A stretch of DNA of 64,000 nt from Gemmatimonadota bacterium (lineage in GTDB: Bacteria; Gemmatimonadota; Gemmatimonadetes; Longimicrobiales; Gaopeijiaceae), in NCBI GenBank assembly GCA_029262115.1, contig JAJCZZ010000031.1, positions 62,001-126,000 of the forward strand, in the 5' to 3' direction. The translations under genes and the position numbers were made by a program. Under the pieces are notes generated by a model. That model saw nothing but the letters and a program-made list of their open reading frames with translations, did no database searches and had not been told where the DNA came from. Below, one piece after another: positions 37,363 to 43,806 of this stretch (its first letter is position 1; each line of letters starts with the position of its first letter).

Positions 37363-38204
37363 GCCCCGCTCGACTCCGTCGATGGCCGGGGAGCATGGCG
37401 ATCCTGGTGGCGCTCGCGCTCACGTCGTGCACCGAGGAGGCCACTCTCCCAACCGCCGAACCGCTGACGTTCGTGATCGCGACGCCCGTGGCATTCGCTG
37501 ACTCCATCTTCCTTGTGGCCGGAACCACTCCAGGCGGTTTCGTGGAGCCTCTCGGTGGGGCTGCGTTCTCGATCCGGACACGGGACACCACCCTTCGCCT
37601 CTCCGAGGCTTCAACAGGAGATTGCGGCTTCCCAACGGGATCCGCCTGTTACCGAGGGGTGACCCACGGACGGATCCTTCCCGGCGATTCCCTCCGGTTG
37701 GTGGGCACGACGGGGTCGGGACGAGAGGTCAGCGGCGCGGCCCGGGTACCGGACGTGCCGGACCTCACCATCCTCGGGTACGGCAACGCGGACACGATCC
37801 GTGGGCGCGTCGCGGCCTTTGACGAGGTACCCGCGACCGTCCTGGGTTTGGAGGGTGTGCCGGGCATGGTCACGTGGAGCGACACGCTCGCCCCTACAAC
37901 CGTCTGGACGCCCTCGGGCGCCGTGTCGTGCGGGACTCGCCCCTTCGATCTTCCGCGGGGCATCGACCTGCGCGGCTTCACCTTGATACTACGAACTCCG
38001 GATCGACCGTGTGCAGTCGAACCAGATTTCCCCTGGGATTCGGTCGCGGTCGACTTCACCTTCCTCGCGTACGACCAGCACTTCACCGCGTGGTCCGCCC
38101 TTTCGGCCCAGCGCCAGCCCGGAGCCAGCCACGGTATCGAGGGAGTGTTCGGCGTGTTTGGAGCCGCGACCCCGAAGCGCTTCGTTCTGGTTCAACTGCC
38201 GTAG
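37350..38204 (+). CDS. DUF4249-like lipoprotein, partner of the TonB receptor
   Basis: 284 residues from GTG 37350 (13-base overlap with the receptor) or 269 from ATG 37395. Lipobox LALTSC. The body is beta-rich, with two Cys pairs (GDCGFPTGSACY; SCGTRPF...PC) and DTIRGRVAAF. The position after a TonB receptor and the general look resemble DUF4249/SusE-like surface lipoproteins; this assignment is tentative. It may present substrate to the receptor. Confidence 0.7.
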   Translation: MAVLSPARLRRWPGSMAILVALALTSCTEEATLPTAEPLTFVIATPVAFADSIFLVAGTTPGGFVEPLGGAAFSIRTRDTTLRLSEASTGDCGFPTGSACYRGVTHGRILPGDSLRLVGTTGSGREVSGAARVPDVPDLTILGYGNADTIRGRVAAFDEVPATVLGLEGVPGMVTWSDTLAPTTVWTPSGAVSCGTRPFDLPRGIDLRGFTLILRTPDRPCAVEPDFPWDSVAVDFTFLAYDQHFTAWSALSAQRQPGASHGIEGVFGVFGAATPKRFVLVQLP

Positions 38205-38251
38205 CCGCAGCCCATCCCCACCCCTCCGCGTCACCTCTCGAGCGTGGCCTC

Positions 38252-38314
38252 TCATCGGTCGCACGCCTCGGCACAGGCGCGACACGCGTCAGCGCAGACG
38301 CGGCAGTGCTCCAT
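38252..38314 (-). pseudogene. C-terminal remnant of a Cys-rich four-helix copper-binding (Csp/DUF326) protein
   Basis: A short minus-strand frame immediately downstream of the GH6 gene encodes MEHCRVCADACRACAEAC followed by DR and a stop. Regular CxxC/CxxxC spacing with MEHC is the signature of the last helix of Csp copper-storage proteins (DUF326). Nothing recognisable as the first three helices lies upstream; the GH6 stop is 51 bases away. Reads as a truncated remnant, though a tiny peptide cannot be excluded. Confidence 0.5.
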
Positions 38315-38365
38315 GTCGCCTGGCGACGCGGTCGTCCGGGTGGAGCCGGGCCTGTCAGTCCTGGA

Positions 38366-39268
38366 TCAGTCCAGCGGACTGGGCGTTCCGCGCCAGATCC
38401 AAAGCATCCTCTTCGTACCACTGACCCGCGGACGGCCCCCGTTACACTCTCCGTCGGACTCACCCGGCCGCTTGATCCACAAGAACGCATCGACGAGAGG
38501 GTGCGCCGTCTCGGTGGTGGGTGCCTGCCCCAACGCCCGACCGCCCGGGTTGCACCACTCCCCATCGGACGGGGCGCCGACACCGTTACGGCTCGTGTCG
38601 ACGACGAAGTGGAGCCCGTTCGTGAGGCGGGAGATTTCCTCACCGTAGCGTATGTTGCGATCGGTGTCCCACGTGTTCGACACGTTGAGCGCGAACCCGT
38701 CCAGCATTCCGCCGACCTCCTGGATCCTCCGCGCCACCGTCTGCGGCGAGTGCCAACTCGGGTGCCCGGCATCGAGGTAGACCGTCGCGTTCGTCTGGTC
38801 CTTCAACAGATCCACGGCCACACGCAGCATGGCAATCCGCTCCACCCGTGCCTCGGGTGTGAGACAGTCGAGCGCAGCGAGAGCGTCCGGCTCGAGGATC
38901 ACGACCGCGCGACGATTGCCGATGCCTTCCGCGAACCTCCCTAACCAGTCCCGATAGTCATCCAATCCACCGGCCCCGCCCGCCGACCACTGCCCGCAGT
39001 CCCGGTTGGGGATGTTATACGCCACCATGACCGGAATCCCGTCGACGCTCTGCGCGGCATCCACCGTACGATCGACGTCTCCACGCACGTCCTCGTTCCA
39101 GTCACCAAACCATTCGGCCTGTGAATTGCTGGCGATGTACTCGAGCAGTCGCGCCTCGTACGGGCTGCGATCGCTGAGATCCGCCGCGCGCCGCGCCGGA
39201 GTCGAGGCTACGTTCACGTACAGCTTGGCCCCCCGGATCGGGTCGGGCGGGGTTGCAGGGGGCCGCAC
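38366..39268 (-). CDS. Glycoside hydrolase family 6 (endoglucanase/cellobiohydrolase), N-terminus frameshifted
   Basis: 300 residues of GH6 catalytic domain. Both family signatures are present: YNIPNRDCGQWSAGG (with the catalytic Asp of the RDC loop) and VVILEPDALAALDCL (EPD catalytic acid region), followed by VYLDAGHPSWH, GFALNVSNT and FVVDTSRNG. It hydrolyses beta-1,4-glucans. The only in-frame start is GTG 39268 and a TGA closes the frame at 39298, so this frame lacks a signal peptide; a lipoprotein signal lies just upstream in another frame (39378). The gene is probably secreted only if the shift is a sequencing error. Confidence 0.82.
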   Translation of the reverse strand: MRPPATPPDPIRGAKLYVNVASTPARRAADLSDRSPYEARLLEYIASNSQAEWFGDWNEDVRGDVDRTVDAAQSVDGIPVMVAYNIPNRDCGQWSAGGAGGLDDYRDWLGRFAEGIGNRRAVVILEPDALAALDCLTPEARVERIAMLRVAVDLLKDQTNATVYLDAGHPSWHSPQTVARRIQEVGGMLDGFALNVSNTWDTDRNIRYGEEISRLTNGLHFVVDTSRNGVGAPSDGEWCNPGGRALGQAPTTETAHPLVDAFLWIKRPGESDGECNGGRPRVSGTKRMLWIWRGTPSPLD

Positions 39269-39378
39269 GTTGGCGGACGCTGCAGCCCTGCGGCGCGGTC
39301 ACCCGCGGGAGTCGAAGCCGTCGCGTCACAGGACGCGATACACGTACCCGCTAGGGCGATGGCTAACAGGCTCGTCAT
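39214..39378 (-). other. Out-of-frame lipoprotein signal peptide for the GH6 gene
   Basis: ATG 39378 opens MTSLLAIALAGTCIASC, an ideal lipoprotein signal with lipobox IASC, followed by the linker DATASTPAGDRAAG; the frame then runs into the GH6 coding region and stops at 39214. A one-base shift anywhere between 39214 and 39297 would join it to the GH6 frame. So the intact ancestor was very likely a GH6 lipoprotein. Confidence 0.65.
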
Positions 39379-39409
39379 CGACTGGTCATCTCTCGAGACT
39401 CGTGTGGGG

Positions 39410-39699
39410 TCATTTCTCCAGGGTGAACTGCCAGATCCATGCCGAACCGCCGAACGGGTCGGCAGACCGTCGAATGCGCGCGATCAACCGAAGGCGGAGC
39501 GCCACGCCGCGATCCGAAGAGACGGGCCAGTCGTGGATGGCCTGAAGGCCGCATTGGGTCTGAGGCCGACGGCCCCATTGTGGCTGGCCCGAGGACCGCC
39601 ATATTCGCTCGCGCACCGACGGGGTACGCGCCGGCACCCACACCGTCGGAGCCCTCCTCCCCTCACATCGCCATTGCTCTGAAAGGTCTGATCTGAATC
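39410..39699 (-). other. Gap between GH6 and lysA-like gene; possible protein remnant
   Basis: The 321-base gap 39379-39699 holds no convincing gene. One minus-strand frame ends at 39410 with DWPVSSDRGVALRLRLIAR and then SADPFGGSAWIWQFTLEK, which reads like a real C-terminus; its upstream part (to 39721, overlapping the start of the next gene) is low-complexity. I do not recognise the family. Could be the decayed upstream neighbour of the GH6 gene. Confidence 0.3.
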
Positions 39700-41895
39700 G
39701 TGACGTCACAGGACCCGTCATGGGTCGTTCTCCGTTTCCGCGGGACCCCGGATGCCGACCCGGCCGCCTGGGCCACCTTCTCCGAAATCGCCCGAGTCCG
39801 CGCGCGGGGCGGCGAGCAACCGATCGTGGTGCACGACGGCCCTCAGAGGGCCGAGGACGCGCTGAGCTTCGTAAAGACGGTTGAGGTGGCGATCGGGGAA
39901 GTACGGGCGAAGGTCGAAGCCGGCCTGGACCGAGGGGGGAGCGACGAGGCCGCCGCCCGGATCGCTGTGGCTCTGGGTGTTTCGCTCCTGGAGGTCTGGA
40001 CCGGCCTGCCCGGGATGTTCACGGCGGACCCTCACGTCGTACCGACGGCGCGACGCCTCAACCGCCTCTCCTACAATGAGGCGCAGGAGATCGTCACGAC
40101 CGGCGACCAGGCGCTCCACCCGCAGTGCATTCCCATCGTTCGCGACTCGGGGATTGCCATCCGAATCCGTTCGCTCGGCGAGCCCACCGCAGCCGGCACA
40201 GCCATTTCCAGCCGCAGCGGAGCCGGCGGCCCTGGCCTGAAGGCCATCTCCATGAAGAAGGGGGTCGTGCTCATTTCAATGGAAACCGTGGGGATGTGGC
40301 AGGTCGTCGGATTCCTCGCACGCGCGTTCCAGTGCTTCCAGGCGCACGGGCTCTCCGTGGATCTGGTCGCCACGTCCGAGACCAACGTGACGGTCTCGTT
40401 GGACGCTCGTGCCAACACGCTCGACCGAACGACCCTGGACGGGTTGGTTCGCGACCTCTCCGAGCTGGCGGTCGTGCGTGTCATCGAGCCATGCGCGTCC
40501 GTCAGCCTGGTGGGCCGGGGGATCCGCGGGCTCCTGCCACGCCTCTCCCCCGCCTTCGAGGTCTTCGATGAGGAGCGAGCCCACATGGTCACCCAGGCGG
40601 CGAACGACCTCAACCTGACGTTCGTCGTCGACGAAGACCAAGCCCCCCGGCTCGTGAAACGGCTGCATCACCTCTTCTTTTCGGCCGGTGGTGGTGGTGC
40701 CGACGTGGGTCCAACGTGGGATGAATTGCGGGCCGGCGGGCCCGTCCCCGTGCGCGGGTCGGCACGCGTCCCGGACGCCTTCTGGGTCGACCGTCGCGAA
40801 GAACTCATGGCTCTGCTCGACGGGCGTGACGCCGCTTACGTGTACGACCTGGAAACCATTCGAAGTAGAGCACGCGCTCTACGCGCCATCGACAGTCTGG
40901 ATCAGGTGCTCTACGCCATGAAGGCGAATTCGCACGCCGACGTCATTCGTGCGGCCGTCACCGAGGGCCTCGGTCTGGAGTGTGTCTCCGAGGGCGAGAT
41001 CGATCACGCCCGAGCCTCCGTGGGGGGTGACGTCCCGATCCTGTTTACGCCCAACTTCGCACCGCGAAGCGAATACCGGGACGCGTTCGAACTCGGTGTG
41101 CACGTCACCGTCGACGGGCTTCACCCCCTCAGGGCCTGGCCCGAGGTCTTTCGTGGGCGACCGATCTTCGTCCGGGTCGACGCCGGGGACGGACGGGGAC
41201 ACCACGAGAAGGTCCGAACGGTGGGACCGGGAGCGAAGTTCGGGGTTCCCCTCGACGACCTCCCCGAGGTACGCGCCATCACGGACGGTATCGGAGCGAC
41301 GGTCGTGGGACTCCATGTACACTCCGGGAGCGGCATCCTCGAACCGAAGCATTGGGAACGGAATGCGGTCGCACTCCTGGCCGCGGCCGATTCATTTGCA
41401 AACGTGCGCTACGTCGACCTTGGCGGGGGCCTTGGTGTTCCTGACCGGCCGGGGCGCCCCCACCTCGACCTGAGCATGTTGGGCGAGGGACTCGCTTCGG
41501 TTCGGCACACAATCGGTGAGCGCCAGCTATGGCTGGAGCCTGGCCGCTTCGTGGTCGCGGAGGCCGGCGTACTCATCGCACGGGTCACGCAGGTAAAACG
41601 AAAAGGCGAGCGGCACTTCGTGGGCATCGCCACGGGAATGAACTCCCTGATCCGACCCATGCTGTACGGGGCGCACCACGACATCGTGAACCTCACGCGC
41701 CTGGACGCCCCACCCACTCGTCTGACGACCGTCGTGGGGCCGATCTGCGAAACCGGAGACCGACTCGGTGTGGACCGCCTGCTTCCCCCGACCGAGGAGG
41801 GCGACGTCATCCTCATCGACCAGGCCGGAGCGTACGGCCGGGTCATGGCTTCGTCATACAACATGCGGCCGCCCGCGGAGGAGCTGGTGATCTGA
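39700..41895 (+). CDS. LysAC-like fusion: degenerate aspartate kinase plus diaminopimelate decarboxylase
   Basis: 731 residues from GTG 39700. Residues ~1-170 match aspartate kinase but are broken: the start KFGGT reads RFRGT, the middle ~130 residues are missing so that GGSD follows soon after, and WTDVPG is WTGLPG. Two ACT-like modules follow (ISMKKGVVLISMETVGMW). From ~360 the DAP decarboxylase half is intact: PLP Lys in VLYAMKANS, HVHSGSGI, GPICETGD with the catalytic Cys, and AGAYGRVMASSYN. It should make lysine from meso-DAP; the kinase is probably inactive. Compare the ~860-residue LysAC of Xanthomonas. Confidence 0.85.
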   Translation: MTSQDPSWVVLRFRGTPDADPAAWATFSEIARVRARGGEQPIVVHDGPQRAEDALSFVKTVEVAIGEVRAKVEAGLDRGGSDEAAARIAVALGVSLLEVWTGLPGMFTADPHVVPTARRLNRLSYNEAQEIVTTGDQALHPQCIPIVRDSGIAIRIRSLGEPTAAGTAISSRSGAGGPGLKAISMKKGVVLISMETVGMWQVVGFLARAFQCFQAHGLSVDLVATSETNVTVSLDARANTLDRTTLDGLVRDLSELAVVRVIEPCASVSLVGRGIRGLLPRLSPAFEVFDEERAHMVTQAANDLNLTFVVDEDQAPRLVKRLHHLFFSAGGGGADVGPTWDELRAGGPVPVRGSARVPDAFWVDRREELMALLDGRDAAYVYDLETIRSRARALRAIDSLDQVLYAMKANSHADVIRAAVTEGLGLECVSEGEIDHARASVGGDVPILFTPNFAPRSEYRDAFELGVHVTVDGLHPLRAWPEVFRGRPIFVRVDAGDGRGHHEKVRTVGPGAKFGVPLDDLPEVRAITDGIGATVVGLHVHSGSGILEPKHWERNAVALLAAADSFANVRYVDLGGGLGVPDRPGRPHLDLSMLGEGLASVRHTIGERQLWLEPGRFVVAEAGVLIARVTQVKRKGERHFVGIATGMNSLIRPMLYGAHHDIVNLTRLDAPPTRLTTVVGPICETGDRLGVDRLLPPTEEGDVILIDQAGAYGRVMASSYNMRPPAEELVI

Positions 41896-41933
41896 GCAGG
41901 GACGTGCAGGTGGCTTACGCGCCTAGTCCACGC

Positions 41934-43049
41934 CTAGCCCAGCGGAAGCGACACTCGCATGGTCGTGCCCACGCCGAGCTCGCTCTGAGCGGTGATGTCG
42001 CCGCCGTGTGCCTGAGCGATGACACGGCACAGGTAGAGGCCCAGACCGAGCCCACGTCGGCTGTCGTCGCTTCTCTGCCAGAACCGCTCGAAGATATGGG
42101 GCAAAGCATCTGCGGGGATTCCAGCGCCGTCGTCCCGAACGACGTATACGAGATGCTCGTCGTCGGACTCAACGTGGACGGACACCGTCCCTCCGGGAGG
42201 GGTAAACCTCATCGCGTTGCCGAGCAGGTTCGAAATCAACTGCATGAGGCGATCGTGATCGAACGAGGCGACGATATCCGCCACCGGCACGTCGATGCCG
42301 AAGCTGACCCCGCGAGCGTCGAACGTGGGGAGAAAGGCACGGTGAACTTGCGATGTGAACGCGCCCACGTCGTGGGGTCGCTTCGTCAGCGGAAAGCTCC
42401 CCACGTCGACGCGAGCGACATCGAGCAGGTCGGTCAACAGGCGCCCCATCCTCGCCGCGGCCAGCGTCACGTCGTCAGCTGCGCCACGCGCGGCCTCGTT
42501 GGCAGCGGTTTCCGCTAGGAACTCCGCGTTCAAGACGATCCCGCACAGCGGAGTCCGAAGGTCGTGCGTCACCATCGCCAACACGTCAGAGTGGTCAGCC
42601 TCGATGGCGTCCGCGTCGCTGCGCTCACCCTGCAGGCGCTCATTCGTATCGGCCCGCCGCACCCCCTGCGCGACATCTGCCCGCGCTCGCATGTCGCGCC
42701 GGGTTCCGGCGCGTGCGTCGACCCGTCGTCGTTCGTGGTCGATCAAAGCGTCTGCGGCGGAGCGCTCGGCTCGCATGCCATCATCGGCGACGGCGCGCTC
42801 CTCCTCGACCCGGACAGAGGGCTCGGAGGACGCGGCACGCTGGCCAGCCAACACCGCGTCGGCATTCTCGCGAAACATCGTGAGGCGCTGATCGGCGACT
42901 ACGCGATCACGGGCGATGAGGACGTCCAACTTTCGCTGGATGTTCGCCGCAGTTCGAACGAGCGCGGCGTCGGCAGTCGCCCGTTCCGCATCGAGACTCG
43001 CGTCGGTCCTTGCGCGGCCCTCAGCCACGACATCTCGATCGTCGTCCAC
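41934..43049 (-). CDS. Cytoplasmic histidine kinase with charged repeat coiled coil
   Basis: 371 residues from GTG 43049. The first ~145 residues are a highly charged helix with an R-x-x-A-D-x-x-L-x-x-E-R type repeat (ASLDAERATADAAL, RAVADDGMRAERSAADAL, DTNERLQGERSDADA). Then HisKA AMVTHDLRTPLCGI with the phospho-acceptor His, N-box LISNLLGNAMRF, and HATPase VRDDGAGIPADALPHIFERF and GLGLGLYLC. No membrane segment, no linked regulator; the receiver at 30 kb is a possible partner (speculative). Confidence 0.85.
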   Translation of the reverse strand: MDDDRDVVAEGRARTDASLDAERATADAALVRTAANIQRKLDVLIARDRVVADQRLTMFRENADAVLAGQRAASSEPSVRVEEERAVADDGMRAERSAADALIDHERRRVDARAGTRRDMRARADVAQGVRRADTNERLQGERSDADAIEADHSDVLAMVTHDLRTPLCGIVLNAEFLAETAANEAARGAADDVTLAAARMGRLLTDLLDVARVDVGSFPLTKRPHDVGAFTSQVHRAFLPTFDARGVSFGIDVPVADIVASFDHDRLMQLISNLLGNAMRFTPPGGTVSVHVESDDEHLVYVVRDDGAGIPADALPHIFERFWQRSDDSRRGLGLGLYLCRVIAQAHGGDITAQSELGVGTTMRVSLPLG

Positions 43050-43207
43050 TCGTACACCCCCGATGCCCGATACCTGGCGAGCCGGATGCTCCGTCCGCTC
43101 AACAGGCGGGCTGAGTTAATGCATACATCGGCGGGTACCACGCGGGCAAGGGGTGGACCTGGTCTCGGCGGGAGTCAGAACACATCCGTTCAGTTAATCC
43201 GGCGCGG

Positions 43208-43402
43208 TCACTCTTCGTAGAAGAAGATGTCCTCGATCCTCCGTTCGAAGAGTCGGGCAAGCTTGAAGGCAAGGGGTAGCGAGGGGTCGTAGCGCCCGGC
43301 TTCGAGAGCATTGACGGTCTGGCGGGACACCGAGAGCCGCGCCGCAAGATCGGTCTGCGTCCACCCTTGTTCCGCTCGGAGTTCACGAAGAACGTTCCTC
43401 AA
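43208..43402 (-). CDS. Small Xre-type HTH regulator (YozG-like)
   Basis: 64 residues from TTG 43402, whose TTGA overlaps the stop of the upstream membrane-protein gene. Helix-turn-helix LRAEQGWTQTDLAARLSVSR then QTVNALEAGRYDPSLPLA and the tail FERRIEDIFFYEE, the standard YozG/YgzD-type regulator. Such regulators commonly pair with a small membrane protein, as here. Confidence 0.88.
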   Translation of the reverse strand: MRNVLRELRAEQGWTQTDLAARLSVSRQTVNALEAGRYDPSLPLAFKLARLFERRIEDIFFYEE

Positions 43403-43806
43403 CGCTCTCGAACGCCTTGGATGAAGAGGACGATGGAGTAGACGACGGCGAAGGCGGGCAGAAGCAGGTATCCCGGCAATTGGGGTGCATCCAACATCTC
43501 CTCGAAGAGCCCCCAGAGAGAAGCCAGGAAAAGAACCAGCCCGCCGCCGATCGAAACGGCGCGAAGCTGGAGCAGGTGCATCATCTCGTCCTCCCGCCGG
43601 ATCATCCGCGCGAATGCGCCCCCCCACAGGATCAGGATCACGGTGGGGAGGACGACAGCCGCGATCCGGGCCTCCCCGTGACCCGTAGCTCGCGTGAGGA
43701 GGGCGCCGGCGGCGAGCGTTACCGCGAATAGTGTCATCAGCAGAGCCTGGAGCCGGATGAACCGCGTGCGCGCGGCGTCGGGTCCGCTTGGGCGTTCCGA
43801 CGTCAT
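43399..43806 (-). CDS. Four-helix small membrane protein, partner of the HTH regulator
   Basis: 135 residues from ATG 43806. Four membrane segments: LLMTLFAVTLAAGALL, IAAVVLPTVILILWGGAFA, VSIGGGLVLFLASLWGLF and YLLLPAFAVVYSIVLFI. The loop MIRREDEMMHLLQLRAVS is typical of DUF2178-like proteins that occur next to YozG-type regulators. Function unknown. Confidence 0.8.
   Translation of the reverse strand: MTSERPSGPDAARTRFIRLQALLMTLFAVTLAAGALLTRATGHGEARIAAVVLPTVILILWGGAFARMIRREDEMMHLLQLRAVSIGGGLVLFLASLWGLFEEMLDAPQLPGYLLLPAFAVVYSIVLFIQGVRER

Follow-up and report, generated by a model that had tools for sequence, protein, structure and literature searches.

A LysAC fusion from a Gemmatimonadota bacterium with a probably inactive aspartate kinase and a conserved ACT pair and DAP decarboxylase

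The window, by which we mean the whole stretch of 64,000 nucleotides analysed here, contains a lysAC gene whose product has probably lost its aspartate kinase while its ACT pair and DAP decarboxylase seem to have been kept under purifying selection, the protein being likely to decarboxylate still. The kinase would have been lost through an in-frame internal deletion combined with substitutions at catalytic residues. What is left would be a dimeric PLP decarboxylase converting meso-DAP to lysine, the N terminus of which bears the collapsed remains of the kinase together with an ACT pair that binds lysine. The LysAC fusion is already known; the kinase-dead form appears to be new and was found once. 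The features of the gene are as follows.

39700..41895, plus strand: lysAC gene, 731 aa, putative kinase-dead aspartate kinase/DAP decarboxylase fusion (open reading frame and NCBIfam PRK08961)
39715..39876, plus strand: residues 6–59, N-terminal strand-helix-strand remnant of the kinase (HMM domain 1, 16 bits, i-Evalue 1.3e-7)
39877..39924, plus strand: residues 60–75, scar left by the internal deletion (16 residues in place of 148 model positions)
39925..40230, plus strand: residues 76–177, degraded part of the ATP lobe of the kinase (AA_kinase positions 145–234)
40231..40689, plus strand: residues 178–330, conserved ACT pair of the lysine type (MWQVVGFLA ... SVDLVATSETN; PF22468 and alignment with AKIII)
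40780..41892, plus strand: residues 361–731, DAP decarboxylase with intact catalytic residues (PF02784 and PF00278)

The open reading frame is free of stops and frameshifts across 2.2 kb and begins with a GTG one codon past a stop, the earliest start possible after that upstream stop. The gene stands alone, both of its neighbours being on the opposite strand: upstream, a gene for a glycosyl hydrolase of family 6, a cellulase family (38366–39268, minus strand, 300 aa), and downstream, a histidine kinase gene. Its codon composition resembles that of native genes, with a third-position GC of 0.77–0.86 in the main domains versus 0.82–0.86 in native genes. A search of positions 38000–43500 returned no Rfam RNA at gathering scores, the lysine riboswitch included, and no sigma-70 promoter-like sites were found in 39200–42000, as would be expected by chance. 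Pfam recognises the last 40% of AA_kinase, then ACT_9 and the two decarboxylase domains, and the alignment likewise places the ACT pair and the LysA domain one after the other in a single chain, the arrangement that marks a LysAC. Against PRK08961 (NF006515), the protein scores 897.5 bits, above the curated cut-off of 802. Since it passes this cut-off for a bifunctional enzyme despite the apparent loss of one function, family scores can mislabel such proteins; judged by its sequence, this one descends from the LysAC family but should not bear the name bifunctional.

We then examined the kinase half with an HMM for the gap, built from 89 relatives. The N-terminal remnant corresponds to model positions 3–56 and residues 76–731 to positions 205–858 (972 bits), such that 148 positions have given way to 16 unalignable residues. 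The result is a net loss of 132 residues, in frame, in agreement with the roughly 130 central residues that the preliminary description had reported missing. The deleted segment extends from the N-terminal strand to the GRGGSD motif. A GE at residues 66–67, within the scar, is equated with the GE motif of the kinase by one aligner and left unaligned by the HMM. Alignment with intact LysACs shows that the motifs on either side have also changed: KFGGT reads RFRGT, the SA of VVHSA is DG, LGRGGSD reads LDRGGSD and WTDVPG reads WTGLPG, so that none of the three motifs of a complete kinase (KFGGT, GRGGSD and WTDVPG) is retained. The first and last of these replacements had already been noticed in this reading frame. 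At N-terminal columns conserved in at least 99% of LysACs, the substitutions are K12R, G14R, S17P, S46D and A47G. One further position, Q137 in place of K257 of AKIII, was considered as a sign of kinase death and rejected, since intact LysACs vary among K, R, Q, S and G at this site. From its motifs, the protein is very unlikely to have kinase activity. Its domains follow one another as in PRK08961 proteins (kinase, ACT pair, decarboxylase), and it is about 50–58% identical from residue 76 onwards to the LysACs of related genomes, but differs from them in the absent model positions and key residues.

The deletion is confined to one genome among those compared. The comparison covered the best 80 LysAC loci in the database together with samples of the family, the order, the phylum and the Gammaproteobacteria, and no second carrier of an internal kinase deletion was found among these LysAC genomes. 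The best 80 are full length with their motifs in place, apart from one cut by a contig end (L079) and a few with single-motif substitutions. Every other complete LysAC of the family, order and phylum samples is full length, as are all 14 complete fusions in the gammaproteobacterial sample (369 genomes). The only other genome of the same genus that was compared, G018, has a full-length kinase half, and its contig stops within the decarboxylase.

Several variants were seen along the way. The full-length LysACs L012 and L014 (genomes G048 and G017, of one related genus), and also L055 and L062, have WSQVPG in place of WTDVPG, and with the conserved Asp lost their kinases may be impaired too. Four loci (L020–L023, in genomes G023, G050, G033 and G030) encode LysAC-type aspartate kinases without a decarboxylase, in open frames of 481–549 residues that stop near the fusion point. 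In one gammaproteobacterial genome, a copy that belongs to the LysAC branch but consists of LysA only (G611:C1:1712313-1713476) is separated from a full LysAC by about 6.5 kb.

The source genome has a separate aspartate kinase, a check that had been proposed in the preliminary description. The refuting condition given there, absence of any other aspartate kinase together with measurable kinase activity of the window protein, accordingly fails in its first half. Four of its proteins belong to AA_kinase, including the window protein and an intact LysC, and the other two, judging by sequence and length, are a UMP kinase and a protein resembling acetylglutamate kinase. The lysC gene (contig C4) is found in the order asd-lysC-dapB, on a different contig from lysAC. 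Its product scores 370 bits versus an aspartokinase cut-off of 208.7, contains KFGGTSV, GRGGGD, WTDVAG and AKVIHP, and has an ACT region of its own; it is about 29–31% identical to the LysAC-type kinases. Loss of the fused kinase could be tolerable because the genome has this LysC.

A second gene, missed by the preliminary description, is an intact stand-alone lysA (G000:C41, L120:10032-11300) in the order proS-lysA-guaA, with a score of 472.6 bits to TIGR01048. The oligonucleotide composition of the contigs bearing lysAC and lysA agrees (correlation 0.989). The same gene order, or the portion of it covered, occurs at nine non-LysAC loci of the family, and is the ancestral operon. Ten LysAC genomes of the family, G018 among them, preserve the synteny but have lost lysA from exactly this site, proS adjoining guaA directly, so that LysAC took over from lysA in those lineages. 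A stand-alone LysA above the cut-off was found in none of the 13 LysAC genomes scored, whereas the source genome, alone in this set, combines the gene with LysAC. In the tree, the window LysAC forms a weak grouping with the G006 and G042 sequences and stands apart from that of G018 (89/72 support), and a clade with G018 is marginally rejected by the AU test (p 0.038). The G018 sequence is fragmentary and the branches are long, so that an independent acquisition of LysAC by a genome which retained its own lysA, although plausible, is no more than a lead. In G006 and G042 (L133 and L134), guaA is just 39% identical to the guaA of other family members, and proS was not found beside it.

Given the intact lysA, the fused decarboxylase may be redundant. 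The PLP lysine and the HxHxGSG, GGG, EPGR, CE(T/S)GD and GAYG motifs of DAP decarboxylases are all present, and the residues kept are K408, H539/H541, GGG 575–577, EPGR 613–616, R652, Y656, C683/E684 and Y712. The predicted structure of this half matches solved DAP decarboxylases, 4xg1 among them (Z 39.6, rmsd 2.2 over 359). The protein has the decarboxylase domain and catalytic residues in common with stand-alone LysA and differs from it in the added N-terminal ACT pair and kinase remnant. Its score to TIGR01048, about 290–294 bits, lies just under the LysA cut-off of 297.9, as is common to many intact LysACs of the family. Retargeting of the decarboxylase to another substrate, considered on account of A654M inside the RP-LYG motif, was rejected, the other active-site residues being unchanged. 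We infer that the fused decarboxylase is most likely still active.

Selection on the separate domains was compared in two ways. Columns conserved in at least 99% of about 89 LysACs were first scored for changes in the window protein: five of eight are changed in the N-terminal piece and four of 21 in the remaining kinase portion, and all nine in the deleted segment are lost, whereas none of 18 is changed in the ACT pair and one of 71 in the decarboxylase. Terminal branch lengths were also estimated per domain with the topology fixed. The kinase branch of the window protein, at 1.44 substitutions per site, is the longest (the next is 0.62) and was the longest in 20/20 column bootstraps (2.5–97.5 percentiles 0.81–3.17). 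The ACT branch is 0.36 (7th of 30) and the decarboxylase branch 0.61 (2nd of 29). The ratio of the kinase to the ACT branch is 4.03, versus 0.86–1.85 in 16 other LysAC rows (z 5.3). Relaxation therefore appears to be limited to the kinase, the ACT pair and decarboxylase evolving at ordinary rates with their key residues kept, although a mild relaxation of the decarboxylase is possible given its second-longest branch. The earlier claims that the kinase half is dead and that the ACT-like and decarboxylase parts are intact are thus well supported, the former by motifs, gap and branch length and the latter by domain matches and conserved columns.

This contrast between a relaxed kinase and constrained partners argues against both a plain pseudogene and an assembly error. 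A LysAC made redundant by the intact LysC and LysA of the genome might be an early pseudogene, decaying from its N terminus with the decarboxylase still undamaged, and the long decarboxylase branch would agree with this, as would changes at seven of the 109 decarboxylase columns that are at least 95% conserved. However, over the time implied by the kinase branch, damage would be expected in all domains and not in the kinase with so few ACT and decarboxylase columns touched, and the frame is unbroken, such that we regard this explanation as unlikely. Far less credible is a deletion produced by assembly or sequencing. The source is a single draft genome of 110 contigs, probably a MAG, and the gap is in frame; nevertheless K12R, G14R, S46D, G77D and D102G flank the gap on both sides and are independent of it, so that a dropped segment cannot explain them, nor the fast evolution of the remaining kinase.

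The ACT pair is the best-conserved portion of the N-terminal half. AKIII of E. coli becomes insensitive to lysine when M318, G323, T344 or S345 is mutated (PMC10464499). Alignment with AKIII shows that all four are unchanged in the window protein, as M199, G204, T225 and S226, while T352 corresponds to S233, in agreement with most other LysACs. On the strength of the retained positions, lysine is the expected ligand. The preliminary description had proposed that the kinase remnant became a lysine/threonine-sensing domain for the decarboxylase. ACT conservation fits the lysine part of this proposal, but the decaying remnant would not itself be the sensor, and threonine sensing finds no support, the closest aspartokinases being lysine-binding (2CDQ and 2J0W/2J0X).

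For the full-length protein, AlphaFold gave a model with a mean pLDDT of 82, with low confidence at about residues 48–79 and in the linker at about 330–356. Residues 1–331 modelled alone reach a mean of 85, with the ACT pair mostly at 88–97 and values below 50 over about 49–71, which are predicted to be disordered. This second model matches aspartokinases with Z 27.5–30.4, including the Arabidopsis enzyme in complex with lysine and SAM (2CDQ; Z 30.4, rmsd 2.5 over 324) and AKIII of E. coli (2J0W/2J0X; Z 29.7, rmsd 3.0 over 312). The modelled packing of the remnant is no proof that it folds in this way, since intact relatives in the alignment bias the model towards the full fold. The window protein resembles the E. 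coli and Arabidopsis enzymes in the fold of its ACT pair and in the positions at which mutation confers lysine insensitivity, but is without a working kinase core.

The likeliest role of the ACT pair is to hold the dimer of the fusion together and, as its conserved residues suggest, to bind lysine; control of the decarboxylase is possible. In a sharper form of the kinase-dead reading, compatible with it and equivalent to the proposal of the preliminary description limited to lysine, lysine on the ACT pair would exert feedback on the fused decarboxylase and so on the final reaction of the pathway, the stand-alone lysA being unregulated; we hold this only tentatively. The ordinary constraint on the ACT pair despite the loss of its kinase partner and the conserved lysine-response positions speak for it, and the retention of two decarboxylases suggests that they are regulated differently. 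Set against this, no LysAC has known communication between ACT and decarboxylase, the low-confidence linker separates the two, and the ACT pair may be retained merely for dimerisation. Improbable, by comparison, is an action in trans, in which the dead LysAC would pair with LysC and tune it much as the beta subunit does in alpha2beta2 aspartokinases. ACT-only regulatory subunits of aspartokinases are among the fold matches (2dtj, 2zho and 3s1t), and the superior conservation of the ACT pair would suit such a role, but LysC already carries an ACT region and is so distant from LysAC-type kinases that heterodimers are doubtful, and the two genes are on different contigs. An ACT pair without an active kinase is common to the window protein, the aspartokinase beta subunits and CASTOR1, in which such a domain can act as an amino-acid sensor (PMC5187391); here, in contrast, it is fused to a DAP decarboxylase.

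For the ask-lysA fusion, described in Xanthomonadaceae, Fondi et al. (2007, PMC1885841) proposed that lysine acts back on the kinase more quickly. With the kinase apparently gone, this rationale is void for the window protein, and the ACT pair is kept nonetheless. The gene is in effect a natural domain-deletion experiment in which one catalytic half is probably dead and the regulatory domain in between is conserved, and it makes directly testable whether the ACT pair of a LysAC acts on the decarboxylase, where the 2007 study treated feedback on the kinase only. In its relatives, LysAC and the lysA of proS-lysA-guaA are mutually exclusive, the source genome being the one exception found, which makes this a clean example of an operon gene giving way to a fusion. 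If the ACT pair does gate the decarboxylase, a two-step fusion would have been turned into a lysine-controlled DAP decarboxylase, with the ACT pair selected as its allosteric sensor.
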